Assembly (NCBI GenBank): GCA_016184005.1
Contig: JACPDL010000003.1
Span: 62,001 to 126,000, forward strand
Reading direction: 5' to 3'
Origin: Candidatus Aenigmatarchaeota archaeon
GTDB lineage: Archaea; Aenigmatarchaeota; Aenigmatarchaeia; GW2011-AR5
DNA length: 64,000 nt
Notes under the pieces: model-generated
Databases searched by the model: none
Told to the model about the DNA's origin: nothing
Seen by the model: the letters and a program-made list of their open reading frames with translations, nothing else
In this document: positions 5,280-58,206 of the stretch, one piece after another
Layout of the letters: each line of letters begins with the position of its first letter
How positions within the stretch are numbered: position 1 is the stretch's first letter
Translations under genes and position numbers: made by a program

Positions 5280-5645
5280 ATGGGCTTGGTTCACATATTC
5301 GGAGAAAAACCTGTACCGAAGGTTCTGGATTTCTTTAGGGTTCATTCTTACTGGGATTATTCACTTAAAGATCTGTCGAAAGCTACAAAGATAAGCCACA
5401 GAACTTTGCAGCAGATAATCCCGCAACTTGTTAAGCATGGTTTTCTGAAATACACAAGAACAGAAGGAAAAGCGAAAATGTTTATTTTTAATAAAGAATC
5501 AAAAATAGCCAAAGAACTGCACGAATTTGCTCGAACAATAGATTTTGAGTTTTTATCTACAGACCATAAAAAAAAGCAGCACTCGCCTGAGATTGCCTTT
5601 GATCTTGGGAGAAGCGAAGCTTCTCAGAGATTCCAAAAAGCGTAG
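5280..5645 (+). CDS. Winged-helix transcriptional regulator with hairpin-repeat-encoded C-terminus
   Basis: YWDYSLKDLSKATKISHRTLQQIIPQLVKHGFLKYTRTEGKAKMFIFNKES; last ~13 aa (LGRSEASQRFQKA) encoded by hairpin repeat. Confidence 0.75.
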   Translation: MGLVHIFGEKPVPKVLDFFRVHSYWDYSLKDLSKATKISHRTLQQIIPQLVKHGFLKYTRTEGKAKMFIFNKESKIAKELHEFARTIDFEFLSTDHKKKQHSPEIAFDLGRSEASQRFQKA

Positions 5646-5656
5646 CTTTTTGAGAA
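5604..5656 (+). repeat. ~55-bp hairpin-pair repeat overlapping the 3' end of a CDS
   Basis: CTTGGGAGAAGCGAAGCTTCTCAGAGATTCCAAAAAGCGTAGCTTTTTGAGAATT. Confidence 0.92.
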
Positions 5657-6820: not shown

Positions 6821-8122
6821 ATGCCATACGAATTCAGGTTTCCCGATGTTGGCGAGGGCATAACAGAAGGTGAGATAGTAAAATGGCGCGTGAAGGAAGG
6901 AGATACTGTTAAGGAACATGATGTCATCGCCGAGATAGAAACAGACAAGGCAATAGTCCAGATACCTTCGCCAAAGAGCGGCAAAATAGCAAAACTCCAT
7001 CATCGTGAAGGCGATACCATTCACGTAGGAGAAACGCTCGCGACTATCGCTGAAGAGAATGAGCAGCTTATTTCTTCCACGGAAAAATCCATTGAAATGC
7101 CGAAACAGCAGAAAGGTGTCGCTGTTGTCGGCCAGCTTGAAGAAGCAGCAGATATAGAGCCTGCTGTGAAACAGCCCACGGCTAAGCCAGCCGTAAATGC
7201 AGCAAAGCAGGTTACCGGCAAGATGGCTGAAGTGCTGCCGGCTGTAAGGAGGCTTGCAAGAGAGCTTAATGCCGACATTTCAAGCGTAAAAGGAACAGGG
7301 AAAGACGGACGAATAACAGAGGAAGACGTCAGGCAGTCTTCTCAAGCAGCAGAAAAAAAAAGCGAAGAAGTACAAGAACAGTCTCTTGTCAGGATAGAAA
7401 GAAAATACGATATGTACGGTTATGTTGAGCGTGTGCCGTTGAAAGGCATCAGAAAAGCAACAGCGAAGAACATGGTGAAGTCCATGTTCACAGCGCCGCA
7501 TGTGACACACATGGATGAAGCTGACGTCACAGAACTTTCAGCAATTCGCGAAAAAGAAAAGGCAAAAGCTGAAAAGAGCGGCATAAAACTGACTTTCCTG
7601 CCGTTCGTCGTGAAGGCAGCTGTCGCTGCGCTGAAGGCGCATCCATACATGAACGCAAGCATGGATGATGAGCATGGCGAAATAATACTGAAAAGCTACT
7701 ACAATATCGGCATAGCTATTGACACTACAGACGGCCTGATAGTTCCTGTCATCAAGGAAGCAAGCGAAAAAACAATCCTGGAGATAGCAAAAGAAATACA
7801 AAAATTTTCTGAAGCCGCTAAGGACAGGAAAATAGATCTTGCTGACATGAAAGGAGGCACGTTTACCATAACAAACGTCGGCTCTGTGGGCGGTCTGCAT
7901 GCAACGCCAATAATAAACTGGCCCGAGGCGGCAATAATTGCGACTGGACGCATATACGACAAGGCTGTCGTAGCCGGTAAAAAAATTGTTGCAAGAAAGA
8001 TGATGCCTCTTTCCGTTTCATTTGATCACCGCATAGTCGATGGCGTAGAAGCAGCCAGGTTCACAAACACGCTGAAAGAGCACTTGGAAGATCCTGAATT
8101 GCTGTTGATTGAGGGACGATAA
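6821..8122 (+). CDS. pdhC: Dihydrolipoamide acetyltransferase (PDH E2)
   Basis: Lipoyl domain with IAEIETDKAIVQIPSP; PSBD VLPAVRRLARELNADISSVKGTGKDGRITEEDV; catalytic SFDHRIVDG. Confidence 0.96.
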   Translation: MPYEFRFPDVGEGITEGEIVKWRVKEGDTVKEHDVIAEIETDKAIVQIPSPKSGKIAKLHHREGDTIHVGETLATIAEENEQLISSTEKSIEMPKQQKGVAVVGQLEEAADIEPAVKQPTAKPAVNAAKQVTGKMAEVLPAVRRLARELNADISSVKGTGKDGRITEEDVRQSSQAAEKKSEEVQEQSLVRIERKYDMYGYVERVPLKGIRKATAKNMVKSMFTAPHVTHMDEADVTELSAIREKEKAKAEKSGIKLTFLPFVVKAAVAALKAHPYMNASMDDEHGEIILKSYYNIGIAIDTTDGLIVPVIKEASEKTILEIAKEIQKFSEAAKDRKIDLADMKGGTFTITNVGSVGGLHATPIINWPEAAIIATGRIYDKAVVAGKKIVARKMMPLSVSFDHRIVDGVEAARFTNTLKEHLEDPELLLIEGR

Positions 8123-9599: not shown

Positions 9600-9722
9600 A
9601 TCTGCAAAGAACATAGTTCTTCTTGCAGAAACCTTTGGTTTCTGAAGACTCAGGAAAGCTTTGCTTTCCTCGAGTTGAGACCTCAGAGAACTTTTAGTTC
9701 TCTGCAGAAAACCCTAGGTTTT
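9600..9722. repeat. Array of five 3-nt-loop hairpins
   Basis: AAGAAC-ATA-GTTCTT; AGAAACC-TTT-GGTTTCT; AGGAAAGC-TTT-GCTTTCCT; AGAGAACT-TTT-AGTTCTCT; AGAAAACC-CTA-GGTTTTCT. Confidence 0.9.
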
Positions 9723-9729
9723 CTCCTTC

Positions 9730-10761
9730 TTAGGTTATGCAGACTTTTGGAGGATTCTTGATGAATTCCTCAAGCAGTTTTATCGCATTCTCGACATCTT
9801 TCATGCTGGCCATTCCGATTGTCGAGTGTATATTCCGCACGGCAATTCCTACCACTGTAGCCGGAACGCCTTCGCGCGAAAGCGATATGCTCAGTGCGTC
9901 TGTGGTGCCTTTATCGCCTACATCGTACTGGATTGGTATGTTTTTCTGTTTTGCTATGTCTGTCAGCCAGTCATTCATGCACCTGTTTGTTATCATGCCC
10001 GAATCTTTCAGCGTTATGCATGGTCCCTTGCCAAGTACGTTCGATTGAATCTTGACCCCTTTATCCTCCGCGTTAGTTACGTCAACTGCAACGGCAAGGT
10101 CAGGCTTTATCTTGTATGTGGAAGTTTTTGCGCCGTAAAGCCCTATCTCCTCTTGGACTGTGAAGACATAGTAAGTATCGCTTTCAGTCTTCTTTGACAG
10201 TTTTGCAAGCTCCATGAGCACGTAGCAGCCGATCCTGTCATCCAGCGCCCGCCCATAAACAACGTTGTTGTCAGCAAACATCCCTATTTCCTGCTGCAGC
10301 GAAATAAATGAGCCTACCTTGACATCCTTCTTCAGCAGTTCCTCTTTGCTTAAACCCGTGTCTATGTACATATCAAGGCTTCTTGGCATGCTGTCAGTCA
10401 TGTCGCCGTTGCTTATCTCTGCTGTAGTTATGACGCCGTATACAGGTTCTTTGCCCGCCTTGATTTTAACCCTCTGGCCGATCAGCGTCAGGGATTCTAT
10501 ACCGCCTACCCGGGAAAATATTATGGCGCCGTCAGAGTCTATGCCTTTTACCATAAGCCCTATCTCATCCATGTGGGCCGTGAGCATAACCCGAGGCGTG
10601 TCGCCCTTCTTGTGTGCTATAAGATTTCCTATGCTGTCCACAGTCACTTCGTCGACATGCTTCCTTATTTCCTTCATTATAAGGTCGCGTACCTCTGACT
10701 CATCACCGCTTATGCCGTCCGTTTCCATCAGCCTTTTCATCATCTCAAACATCCAAATCAC
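9730..10761 (-). CDS. M42-family (TET-type) metallo-aminopeptidase
   Basis: VMLTAHMDEIGLMV; RALDDRIGCYVLMEL; VFTVQEEIGLYGAKTS. Confidence 0.93.
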   Translation of the reverse strand: MIWMFEMMKRLMETDGISGDESEVRDLIMKEIRKHVDEVTVDSIGNLIAHKKGDTPRVMLTAHMDEIGLMVKGIDSDGAIIFSRVGGIESLTLIGQRVKIKAGKEPVYGVITTAEISNGDMTDSMPRSLDMYIDTGLSKEELLKKDVKVGSFISLQQEIGMFADNNVVYGRALDDRIGCYVLMELAKLSKKTESDTYYVFTVQEEIGLYGAKTSTYKIKPDLAVAVDVTNAEDKGVKIQSNVLGKGPCITLKDSGMITNRCMNDWLTDIAKQKNIPIQYDVGDKGTTDALSISLSREGVPATVVGIAVRNIHSTIGMASMKDVENAIKLLEEFIKNPPKVCIT

Positions 10762-19033: not shown

Positions 19034-19176
19034 CTATCCGCAACATTGTTACATAAACAATGTTGGGATGACACCTTGCAGAACAAAGTTCTGCGAGGTC
19101 TCGAAGAGCTTTGCTCTTCGAGGATGCTCTCAGAATCCCACGATTGAAGTCGCGGGAGTATTAAGAGCATATCATT
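19034..19176 (+). repeat. Two-domain structured element, copy 1 (carries two extra 3-nt-loop hairpins)
   Basis: TATCCGCAACATTG...CAATGTTGGGATGACA...GCTCTCAGAATCCCACGATTGAAGTCGCGGGAGTATTAAGAGC; internal GCAGAAC-AAA-GTTCTGC and CGAAGAGC-TTT-GCTCTTCG. Confidence 0.8.
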
Positions 19177-31271: not shown

Positions 31272-31393
31272 ATTATCCGCAACATTGCTTAAAACTGCTG
31301 TCTTTAGACAGCAGATATTACATAAACAATGTTGGGATGACATGCTCTCAGAAACTCACGACTTTAGTCGTGGGAGTATTAAGAGCATATCAT
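31272..31393 (+). repeat. Two-domain structured element, copy 2
   Basis: TATCCGCAACATTGCTTAAAACTGCTGTCTTTAGACAGCAGATATTACATAAACAATGTTGGGATGACATGCTCTCAGAAACTCACGACTTTAGTCGTGGGAGTATTAAGAGCATATCA. Confidence 0.85.
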
Positions 31394-32307
31394 TTCTTCA
31401 TCAGCCACAGCATCAGAGCTTTCTGCGCGTGCAGGCGGTTTTCCGCCTGGTCATAAACTATGCTCGCCTTGCTGTCGATGACGCCATCCGTCACTTCAGC
31501 GCCGCGCTTTGCAGGAAGGCAGTGCATGAACAGAGCCTTCGGCGCGTGTTTCATCAATTGCCTGTTGACCTGATATGGCATGAGGATTTTGCGCCTGGAT
31601 TTTTCCTGGTTATGCGGAACATGATAGCTCATCCAGCTGTCTGTGTAAATAATGTCGGCTCCAGAAACAGCTTCGCTGGCGCTCGCAGTGACGTGAACCT
31701 TGCTTCCATGTGTTTTTGCAAATTCTTTCGCCTTGGCCAGAACCTTTGAGTCAGGCATCATTTGCTTCGGGCAGCCAACGCTTACGTCCACCCCAGATTT
31801 AGAGCAGCCATAAAGCAGCGAGTGAGTAGTGTTGTTTAAGCCATCGCCGACGTAAGCAAGCTTCAAGCCTTTCAGTTTTCCTTTCTTTTCATACATTGTC
31901 ATGAGATCTGCAAGAACTTGGCACGGGTGTTCGAGGTTGGTCATTCCATTTATAACAGGGATTTTGGAGTTCTTTGTAATTTCAACAAGGGTTTCATGAT
32001 TGTAAATCCTTGCCATCATGAGATCAACATATCTTGAAATGACATGTGCAAAATCCTTCGGCGCTTCCTTCTTGCCTATTGTCGATTCGCTTAAGTGATA
32101 GGTTATTGCATGGCCACCAAGCTGCAGCATTCCTGCCTCGAAAGAAATTCTTGTTCTCAGCGAGGGCTCATCGAAAAGCAGAATCAGCGTCTTGCCCCTG
32201 AGTTTATTCGAGAATTTTGAATGACCTTTCTTTATTGCAATCCCCTTGTTTATGAGCATATGCATTTCTTTGCTGCTAAGGTTTGCTAAAGACAGGAAAT
32301 GCTTCAT
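31390..32307 (-). CDS. argF: Ornithine carbamoyltransferase
   Basis: [62 protein letters not shown]. Confidence 0.94.
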
Positions 32308-41798: not shown

Positions 41799-43316
41799 GT
41801 GGTGACAAGATTGAAGAAAAAACACGACATTAGTGGCGTGACGGAAGAGGAAGAAGCCCACGGGAAACTTCACGATAAATCCGAGCTTGTTCCTAAAAGA
41901 GAGCGAACCGAGAAGCACGCCAGAAAAGCGCACCACAAATCAGGCAACGTTATAATGCATACGCTTGGCATAGTGAAGCAGCCCCTGTATACAAAAACTT
42001 TCGCCGCGGCATTCATTTTGTCTGCAATCCTTTATTCGTTCTTGTACGGCTTGTGGAAAATACCTGCAATTGAATTCGGCATCAACAGATTATCCGCTGT
42101 AGGAATTCTGGATTACTTATACCTGATTTTAATTTCGGCACTTGCAGGATTATTGTTCACTTTGTTCAAGTATGGAAGAATGCAATCAGTCAAATCAGGC
42201 TCAACGTTAGCCGGCGGGGGCGGTTTATTTGCAGGAATTGTTTCCACTGTATGCCCTGCTTGCCAAGGCATATCAATAGCAGCACTTGGCGGAACAGTGG
42301 CTGCATTACCGCTTGCGTTTCTTGTACCTTACATAGGCCTTATCCAATTTATCACTGTTTTTATTCTCGGATTTGCACTTTATCTTAAAGCAAACAGTAT
42401 ATTCACGCAGACTTGTATTTCATGCAATCTTGGAAGAAGCGAAACTTCTTCGAGATCTTCAGAGAAACGGAGTTTCTCCGAGATATATGGCAGAAACTTC
42501 GTTTCTGCCTATACAGGCGGAGCAAAGCTCCGCCATGTTCCGAAATCCTTTGGATTTCGAGAATTCCGAAAAGCTCTGCTTTCTGCAGGATTTGATACAA
42601 AGACAAAACACAAAGAAGAACCTTCCGGAAAAGAGCCTCTCCTATATCAGAATCATGTGTTCGCAGCCGTGATAGCCCTGGCATTGCTGCTGATAATAAA
42701 CAATTTCATGATAACCGGCGCATTCACGGCAGCAGGTGCGTCTTCAGCCAATGGCGGCAGCATAACCATCAAGCCGGGATTTGAATACGGTTCCAAGCTG
42801 ACGCTGAAACCCATGCCTCTTGCCAGCGGAGAAAGCCCAAGATTCCAGGGCTACAAATCTATAGTAAAGCCTTTGCCGACAATAAGCGAACTGTCAATGT
42901 CGCCGCCGACGGGCGATGTCACTAAGGATATTGCAAACAACGTTATCCCGAGAGGAACGCCGTGGTACGGTCAGGAAGCGGGCGTGAGCTTCGACGATCC
43001 CATAAAAGCACAGCAGCTCTGGGCAAAGGGAAGAGCAATCCAGCTGAACGGCGATGAGCAGAAAAGATGGGAAAGAATAGTAAATTCCTTTACATGCGAT
43101 TATTGCTGCGGATCGCCTCAGCAGCCGACAATAATTACGCGGTGCGGCTGTGCGCACTCCATCGCTGCACAAGGCATGGCAAAATGGTTTATTAAGAATT
43201 ATGGGGGCAAATATTCTGACGAAGAAATATACGGCGAGATGGCGCGATGGTATGCACTGTGGTATCCGGGCCCGACAGTCAAAAGAATCGTGCAGGAGCT
43301 GCAGGCAGCAAATTAG
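41799..43316 (+). CDS. Multi-TM protein with CPAC TM motif, internal hairpin-array-encoded segment and C-terminal CC...CGCAH domain
   Basis: VCPACQGISIAALGGTVAALPLAFLVPYIGL; SCNLGRSETSSRSSEKRSFSEIYGRNFVSAYTGGAKLRHVPKSFGFREF from hairpins; FTCDYCCGSPQQPTIITRCGCAHSIAAQGMAKWFIKNYGGKYSDEEIYGEMARWYALWYPG. Confidence 0.75.
   Translation: MVTRLKKKHDISGVTEEEEAHGKLHDKSELVPKRERTEKHARKAHHKSGNVIMHTLGIVKQPLYTKTFAAAFILSAILYSFLYGLWKIPAIEFGINRLSAVGILDYLYLILISALAGLLFTLFKYGRMQSVKSGSTLAGGGGLFAGIVSTVCPACQGISIAALGGTVAALPLAFLVPYIGLIQFITVFILGFALYLKANSIFTQTCISCNLGRSETSSRSSEKRSFSEIYGRNFVSAYTGGAKLRHVPKSFGFREFRKALLSAGFDTKTKHKEEPSGKEPLLYQNHVFAAVIALALLLIINNFMITGAFTAAGASSANGGSITIKPGFEYGSKLTLKPMPLASGESPRFQGYKSIVKPLPTISELSMSPPTGDVTKDIANNVIPRGTPWYGQEAGVSFDDPIKAQQLWAKGRAIQLNGDEQKRWERIVNSFTCDYCCGSPQQPTIITRCGCAHSIAAQGMAKWFIKNYGGKYSDEEIYGEMARWYALWYPGPTVKRIVQELQAAN
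42428..42590 (+). repeat. Six-hairpin array inside a coding sequence
   Basis: AGAAG-CGAAA-CTTCT; GAGAAAC-GGA-GTTTCTC; GCAGAAAC-TTC-GTTTCTGC; GGCGGAGC-AAA-GCTCCGCC; GAAATCC-TTT-GGATTTC; GAAAAGC-TCT-GCTTTC. Confidence 0.88.
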
Positions 43317-43634: not shown

Positions 43635-44780
43635 ATGGCAAAGAAAACATTAGATATAATTTTATATATTTTTGTTGTATTGGCAGTAGCTTTTTCGCTT
43701 GTGAGCCTGTCTCTTATAACCGCCAGAAGCGAGAAAGTCAAAGAATCTCTTTTGCTGGCTGAAAAAGAAAACCAGCCGGCCAAGCTGGAATTGATAAAGA
43801 TCGCTGCTTCTTCATGCAAAGACTGCTTTGATGTAGACTCCGTCATTGAAAGCCTGAAAAAATCCAATGCAAACGTTACTGAAAGGATACTGGAATTTTC
43901 ATCAGCAGAGGCAAAGCAACTTATCAGCCAGTACAGCATTGAAAAGCTGCCAACGGTCATAGTTCTGGGAGAAGTCAATAAATCTTCTGTTGCCAATCTG
44001 TGGAACCAGGAGTGGAAGGTGGGGATGAAGGACGGCACGCAGGTTTCGTCTGTCTATGCGGCCGTTTCTCCTCCGTATGTCGATGCATCCGGGAACATCA
44101 AGGGAATGGTTATTCTGACACACATTGTAGACCAGTCATGCCCTAACTGCACGAACCTTACATCGCTGGTAGACTTCCTCAAGCAGAGCAATGTGAGATT
44201 CACAGAAGAAAAAACAATTGATTACGCCTCGCCGGAAGCCAAGGACATGATTTCCAGATTTGGCATACAGAAAGTTCCTGCTATAGTCATCTCCAAGGAC
44301 ATCCTGGATTACCCGCCTGTAGCTCAGGTATGGGACCAGTTAAACGCGACGGAGAAACAGGGCTTCTATCCGCTGCACACGCTCGCGCCGCCGTACAGGA
44401 ATCTGGAAACCGGCAAAATAGAGGGACTAGTGACTGTGATATATCTTAGAGACGACACGTGCACAAGCTGCTACGACGTCAAATTAAATAAGCTGATATT
44501 GGAAAGGACCTTCGGCCTGATGATTGTCAATGAGACAACAGCAGATGTAAGCTCCGATTACGGCAAAAGCCTGCTGAAGCAGTACAACATGACAAAAGTC
44601 CCTGTAATACTTGTTTCTTCGGATGCAGCGATGTATTCTGGGTTCCCCGTCGTTTGGCCGCAGGTCGGCAATGTCGCAAGCGACGGATGGCATGTAATGA
44701 GAAATCCTGAAGTTTTGGGAACATACAAGGATTTGTCCTCAGGCCAAGTAATCTCGCCTCCGCAACCAGAAGGCGGTTAA
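43635..44780 (+). CDS. Membrane-anchored protein with three tandem thioredoxin-fold CxxC domains
   Basis: SCKDC...KLPTVIVL; SCPNC...KVPAIVIS; TCTSC...KVPVILVS; N-terminal TM. Confidence 0.85.
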   Translation: MAKKTLDIILYIFVVLAVAFSLVSLSLITARSEKVKESLLLAEKENQPAKLELIKIAASSCKDCFDVDSVIESLKKSNANVTERILEFSSAEAKQLISQYSIEKLPTVIVLGEVNKSSVANLWNQEWKVGMKDGTQVSSVYAAVSPPYVDASGNIKGMVILTHIVDQSCPNCTNLTSLVDFLKQSNVRFTEEKTIDYASPEAKDMISRFGIQKVPAIVISKDILDYPPVAQVWDQLNATEKQGFYPLHTLAPPYRNLETGKIEGLVTVIYLRDDTCTSCYDVKLNKLILERTFGLMIVNETTADVSSDYGKSLLKQYNMTKVPVILVSSDAAMYSGFPVVWPQVGNVASDGWHVMRNPEVLGTYKDLSSGQVISPPQPEGG

Positions 44781-45274: not shown

Positions 45275-45718
45275 ATGAAAAGAAAACACAAGTCCAACCA
45301 TCAATTAAAAACCCGGTCGGCGCTGATCGGCAGCTTGGCAGCCTTGGCAATCTTTTCAGCATTTGGGATTATCACAGCGCTTGTACCTAATGAATTGTTT
45401 ATAAGGATGACACCCGTTTACTTCTACGATTATATATTTCTTATTCTGACTTCAGTACTTTCAGGCGCTTACATAGGATTATGGTATTATGCTAAAAAGA
45501 CACGAACAAGTTGCAACTATGCAGCAACCGGCGGGGCCGTAGGCGGCTTCTTCTCTTTCGGGTGCGCAATATGCAACAAGTTGTTAATCTTGCTACTCGG
45601 CCTGAGCGGCGTGGCGGCTTACTTTATGCCGATACAGCCTGTACTTGGCGCAATCAGCATAGCTCTTCTGACTTATGCAGTTTACATGCAATCTAAAGCT
45701 GTCTGGAGGGTACGGTAA
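45275..45718 (+). CDS. Small multi-TM protein with intramembrane CAIC motif
   Basis: GGFFSFGCAICNKLLILLLGLSGVAAYFMPIQPVLGAISIALLTYAVYMQSKAV; similar layout to 42.2 kb and 53.8 kb paralogs. Confidence 0.7.
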   Translation: MKRKHKSNHQLKTRSALIGSLAALAIFSAFGIITALVPNELFIRMTPVYFYDYIFLILTSVLSGAYIGLWYYAKKTRTSCNYAATGGAVGGFFSFGCAICNKLLILLLGLSGVAAYFMPIQPVLGAISIALLTYAVYMQSKAVWRVR

Positions 45719-58149: not shown

Positions 58150-58206
58150 TAATTCTCAAAAAGCTACGCTTTTTGGAATCTCGGAGAAGCGAAGCTTCTC
58201 CCAAGA
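58150..58206 (-). repeat. ~55-bp hairpin-pair repeat, near-identical inverted copy of 5604..5656
   Basis: Reverse complement CTTGGGAGAAGCTTCGCTTCTCCGAGATTCCAAAAAGCGTAGCTTTTTGAGAATT. Confidence 0.92.

Follow-up and report, generated by a model that had tools for sequence, protein, structure and literature searches.

The six tandem hairpins that lie in frame within a membrane protein gene of this Aenigmatarchaeota genome are very probably (roughly 85%) a single copy of a mobile palindromic element, modular and non-autonomous, which this archaeal lineage carries and which is tolerated in frame inside genes. The window, i.e. the entire 64,000-nt stretch that was analysed, belongs to the genome designated G000, and the genome of its sister species, Candidatus Aenigmatarchaeota AR5_44_11 (contig L009), is designated G001. 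Positions of the host gene, its hairpins and other copies are given in Table 1. A preliminary description had placed six hairpins in frame within the 505-aa ORF; the ORF and the peptide quoted there are as stated, and the array limits given (42428–42590) agree within 1 nt with those of the family alignment. The stem lengths of 5–8 bp have to be extended to 5–9 bp, the longest being that of C, and the predominance of 3-nt loops holds in five of the six hairpins. The array folds much more stably than dinucleotide shuffles of it (z −7.3 as DNA and −6.7 as RNA). Three chains of three or more hairpins occur in the window, and since 10 Markov-shuffled windows gave none, a chance origin of such chains is excluded. 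An Rfam search of the window gave no match. At 9607–9724 there is a run of five tandem hairpins, whose stems are not related to the main family, next to the 3′ end of an ORF on the reverse strand (9730–10761). More hairpin-rich repeats are found at 19041–19122 and 31291–31395, which have near-identical stretches in common (TTACATAAACAATGTTGGGATGACA and ATGCTCTCAGAA...).

Table 1. Host gene, hairpin units and related copies or empty sites of the element (positions in the window)
Feature	Position	Strand	Remarks
Host ORF	41799–43316	+	505 aa, GTG start, membrane protein
Six-hairpin element A-B-C-D-E-F	42428–42589	+	162 nt (54 codons), in frame; limits from family alignment
Unit A	42428–42455	+	head TCTT; 5′-side bulge in family model
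Unit B	42456–42483	+	head TCTT; 5′-side bulge
Units C+D	42485–42538	+	54-nt block, not present in this gene's copy in the sister genome
Unit E	42539–42563	+	3′-side bulge; begins with base 42484, to the left of C-D
Unit F	42564–42589	+	in-frame TAG within the sister genome's F
Hairpin core A	42433–42451		7-bp stem, 5-nt loop
Hairpin core B	42462–42478		7-bp stem, 3-nt loop
Hairpin core C	42489–42509		9-bp stem, 3-nt loop
Hairpin core D	42516–42534		8-bp stem, 3-nt loop
Hairpin core E	42541–42559		8-bp stem, 3-nt loop
Hairpin core F	42570–42582		5-bp stem, 3-nt loop; weakest of the six
Two-hairpin (A-F) copy	5603–5656	+	54 nt
Two-hairpin (A-F) copy	58153–58206	−	54 nt; site also filled in sister genome
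Empty site in the window's E2 gene (6821–8122)	7187–7191	+	
E2 dihydrolipoamide acyltransferase			filled in G001; 108-nt A-B-E-F in linker between lipoyl and E3-binding domains
PKD-type protein			filled in G000, in frame; empty ortholog in G001
AlkD-like protein			filled in G001, in frame; empty ortholog in G000
MFS transporter			filled in G001, 54-nt form between the two halves; empty ortholog in G000
PolX-like protein, HHH region			filled in G001, reverse orientation; empty ortholog in G000
Conserved hypothetical protein			filled in G000, reverse orientation; empty ortholog in G001
FtsY			degenerate copy in both genomes
Small ORF (L137)			probable ninth case; frame conserved in empty G000 copy

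The 505-aa protein has two conserved Cys-containing domains, and the array lies in the linker that joins them. It matches no Pfam family at threshold, and AlphaFold models (four sequences) are uninformative, with a mean pLDDT of 42. A nearby region (45392–45712) has weak similarity (28%) to the membrane domain of this protein and is clustered with a thioredoxin-like ORF (43635–44780), a possible thiol-redox locus. The linkers of orthologs are variable, which would suit a native repetitive linker generated by local duplication, but there is next to no chance that this accounts for the array: the same units are dispersed throughout the genome, which refutes it, more distant orthologs (L010, L013 and L018) are without the array, and empty sites for the element exist elsewhere. 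Nor was the segment found as ordinary native sequence in the comparison of orthologs that the preliminary description had proposed.

At the orthologous gene in G001 the array is of the form A-B-E-F, as against A-B-C-D-E-F in G000, a difference of 54 nt. The insertion in this gene is older than the split of the two species, and C-D has been gained or lost since. Unit F of the sister copy holds an in-frame TAG, so that uninterrupted translation through the array is not guaranteed. Several relatives encode the two domains in separate ORFs that lie next to each other, the division being at the linker where the array lies, and for this reason the stop may simply divide the protein into two. In G000, the open frame and the conserved flanking domains suggest that the array is translated. 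The relatives encoded as two adjacent ORFs are found at L012, L014, L016 and L017, and at L012 the start of the second ORF resembles the N-terminus of the first.

A translated search with the whole 505-aa protein finds six further places in the genome that match only the insert, and a DNA search of G000 finds many more copies. Counting degenerate copies, the array sites number about 35 in G000 and about 45 in G001. The majority of copies are intergenic, with units shuffled among them. The order of the units is fixed and the inner part is variable (A-F, A-E-F, A-B-E-F, A-C-D-F, A-C-D-E-F and A-B-C-D-E-F). The commonest form is the four-hairpin A-B-E-F, of exactly 108 nt (36 codons), and the two-hairpin form A-F is exactly 54 nt long. 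The two halves are inverted relative to each other, A and B having a 5′ bulge and E and F a 3′ bulge; the heads next to the palindromes are TCTT and TTCTC, and the same stems carry loops in both orientations (GAA/TTC, GGA/TCC and TTT/AAA). From CTTGG to GAG the length is 105 nt in 29 of 30 A-B-E-F copies and 51 nt in nearly all A-F copies. The flanking bases are constant, with T before and RA after in 42 of 42 copies, and it is on this ground that the element is taken as 108 or 54 nt. The repeats at 5604 and 58150, to which the first hairpin had been matched, are indeed both two-hairpin copies. An invasion by that first unit had been proposed; insertion did occur, but not of a single unit, all six hairpins being one modular element.

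One orthologous intergenic site has A-B-E-F in G000 and A-E-F in G001, and the 54-nt A-F form is found as a clean insertion. As the blocks are 54 nt each, an origin by nested insertion (B-E inside A-F, and C-D inside B-E) was considered; since A-B-E-F is also the form seen in another family of the order, A-F is equally likely to be a deletion derivative.

Filled and empty sites could be compared between G000 and G001 in 16 cases, and 15 of these, genic as well as intergenic, have an insert of exactly 108 or 54 nt; the exception (L106) fits 107 nt best. If the insert length is shifted by 1–3 nt, the match total falls from 1231 to about 815–853 of 1350. The predominance of intergenic copies and the shuffling of their units would also be expected of ordinary REP- or terminator-like repeats that recombine into genes only rarely, the in-frame cases being the survivors of events of random length. 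Intergenic insertions, however, show the identical exact lengths, which means that length is a property of the element and not a result of genic survival, and such an origin is highly improbable. That the insertions keep the reading frame was correctly described at the outset; the cause lies in the length of the element, intergenic copies included, and not only in selection.

The target resembles A^TNTNG, with T at +1 in 31, T at +3 in 34 and G at +5 in 25 of 42 sites (tail probabilities for these bases depend on assumed base frequencies), and is similar to the element's own TCTTGG end. No target duplication is common to all sites, and a 3-bp duplication fits only some of them. As to mechanism, movement as a MITE by a DDE transposase, duplicating 3 bp of the target and with the flanking T and RA counted as part of the duplication, would account for the matching 3-bp flanks of the MFS (GAT/GAT) and PKD-type (AAT/AAT) insertions. 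It is nevertheless unlikely: the AlkD and PolX pairs have no duplication, T and RA do not vary among 42 copies, which is what one expects if they belong to the element, and there are no matched terminal inverted repeats beyond the hairpins.

The element lies in frame in at least eight genes, probably nine, the 505-aa gene included (Table 1). Six of the seven further host genes have an empty ortholog in the other genome, FtsY being the exception. The PKD-type protein is so named from the look of its repeats, and the part tested gave no Pfam match, so the name is provisional. Long ORFs across copies L024, L038–L040 and L043 are not counted as genes, and L139 is excluded as well, its methylase being able to start downstream of the element. 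At L139 (600–830) a short flank occurs as a tandem duplicate and only one of its copies contains the element, so that an empty and a filled site lie side by side. No insert is seen at the E2, MFS and AlkD sites in outgroup genomes, which can be aligned either through the site or to both of its flanks, and these three insertions are therefore gains. With its many copies, exact empty sites and at least seven further gene insertions, the family bears out the early suggestion that a dispersed palindromic repeat has entered ORFs without disturbing the frame, as Rickettsia palindromic elements (RPEs) do.

Pairwise dN/dS, in which filled and empty lineages are not separated, is 0.09–0.27 in seven gene pairs and 0.45 over 91 codons in the conserved hypothetical pair; most filled/empty gene pairs are under purifying selection. 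The stable hairpins, and the in-frame TAG of the sister copy, which would be harmless if removed, could both be understood if the arrays were excised from the mRNA like introns, or bypassed by the ribosome, and the peptide never made. Against this, in the gene copies examined other than the 505-aa ortholog, the insert keeps the frame and contains no stop codon, neither of which would be needed if it were removed; inserts are mostly in linkers and loops; and a stop in the linker may simply split a protein whose two domains are separate ORFs in relatives. Excision or bypass is thus improbable, and insertion of a mobile element that is tolerated in frame remains the preferred reading.

When insertion of the consensus at target-like sites in the genes of the window was simulated, the frame stayed open in 625 of 660 cases. 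Five of the six frames of the consensus are open, a number almost never reached by random four-hairpin sequences. The idea that this openness is exceptional and selected was rejected, as 31% of Markov sequences with the same dinucleotide content have at least five open frames; the element is stop-poor. Seven of nine genic copies are in frame 1 (0.30 expected, p ~0.004), but this preference is suggestive only, because one of the searches used the frame-1 peptide.

Conservation of the structure was assessed in an ungapped alignment of 20 copies, including those of G020, a genome from another family of the same order. Over its four hairpins 96.5% of the cells are paired, and 13 of 46 pairs are changed on both sides. 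None of 500 shuffles reaches the observed pairing or covariation score, although these counts are not probabilities, the structure having been drawn from the same, related sequences; slid controls are 21–60% paired. The layout and the linkers are found again in another family of the order, where the stems differ by compensatory changes. In G020 (L173, L174 and L179) C- and D-like units stand upstream of A and not between B and E, which means that the mosaic order differs between families. A covariance model at E 1e-4 finds arrays of the same layout in 23 of the 31 genomes of the order, and the arrays inspected have unrelated stems; where the model matches only weakly, the hit may be a generic chain of hairpins. 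At E 1e-8 it finds such arrays in 9 of the 160 genomes of the phylum, eight of them in this order. Genome G005 has three near-identical 108-nt four-hairpin arrays (L238, L239 and L240); their stems have no relation to those of G000, and an outer CCCGAATATGC/GCACATTTCGGG palindrome flanks them.

Genes for IS200-type Y1 transposases are present in both G000 and G001, and relatives without close copies of the element also carry Y1 genes. The Y1 proteins of G001 are of the IS200 type, with 53 as their best RAYT score, below the cut-off of 80. Beside the Y1 loci no arrays of the family were seen, the Y1 genes of G000 being cut by contig ends, and no transposase or RAYT-like mobiliser was found beside the arrays. 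Three contig ends of G000 (L180, L181 and L182, on C3, C4 and C2) break within one and the same Y1 element of the IS200 type (TTTAAATTGACCACCG...), probably an IS present in several copies that the assembly collapsed. A tentative reading, somewhat below an even chance, is that copies move by single-strand (HUH/Y1-type) transposition, like REPINs and IS200/IS605 elements, because there is no target duplication, bulged hairpins stand at both ends and the target is like the end of the element.

In the scheme proposed here, the core form is four bulged hairpins in inverted halves (A-B and E-F), running over 108 nt from T-CTTGG to GAG-RA, with A-F as a 54-nt short form and C-D as an optional inner block of 54 nt. 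It inserts at A^TNTNG-like sites with no detectable target duplication. Because all three lengths (54, 108 and 162 nt) are divisible by three and stop codons are few, the reading frame usually stays open after insertion into a gene, and copies persist in tolerant linkers and loops, where the inserted segment is presumably translated as an extra stretch of protein.

Insertions of palindromic sequences in frame are known mainly from Rickettsia and some other bacteria. RPEs (Ogata et al. 2000, 2002) are palindromic repeats dispersed in the genome and in frame in unrelated genes, as cited in a 2024 review (PMC10969869). The element likewise is a dispersed short palindromic repeat found in frame in multiple unrelated genes, but here the host is archaeal, the layout is a modular one of four hairpins in 108 nt with a 54-nt form, and empty sites are present in a sister genome. 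With REPINs and BIMEs it has in common inverted palindrome pairs as the mobile unit and mosaic combinations, and intragenic REP dimers encoding 20–30 aa have been reported in bacteria (PMC3116915, PMC3733652). In contrast to REPs of the GTAG or CGTC class, it has the heads TCTT and TTCTC, and no RAYT gene was found beside the arrays, the Y1 genes of G000 being cut by contig ends. Lacking such a head and a linked RAYT, the array is not filed as a REP/REPIN member; nor is it filed as an RPE, to which it is likened by insertion behaviour. Subterminal hairpins, no target duplication and an end-like target are common to the element and IS200/IS605-derived non-autonomous elements (PMC6006769), but it has neither a transposase inside or beside it nor a demonstrated match to the local IS200-type ends. 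It resembles MITEs in being small, non-autonomous and multicopy, and some MITEs create in-frame fusions, but it has neither a consistent target duplication nor a classical terminal inverted repeat. Archaeal MITEs are listed in the same review, the available part of which describes no archaeal in-frame case (PMC10969869), and no archaeal precedent of an in-frame palindromic insertion was found in the limited literature searched.

For annotation, the family carries a warning: where these proteins contain peptides like LGRSEASPRSSEKRSFSEIPKSFGFREFQKAALFEN, the sequence is mobile DNA and not a domain. The paired filled and empty alleles of conserved genes in two close genomes make the passage of selfish DNA into protein directly testable, as well as frame-neutrality by construction; the element is mobile and frame-neutral by its length. 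It may be, at odds just short of even, that this DPANN lineage has its own class of self-propagating multi-hairpin elements, probably moved as single-stranded DNA and intrinsically tolerable inside genes by virtue of their length and scarcity of stop codons, which would continually add translated segments to conserved proteins: a protein-invading archaeal REPIN, independent of the bacterial cases.
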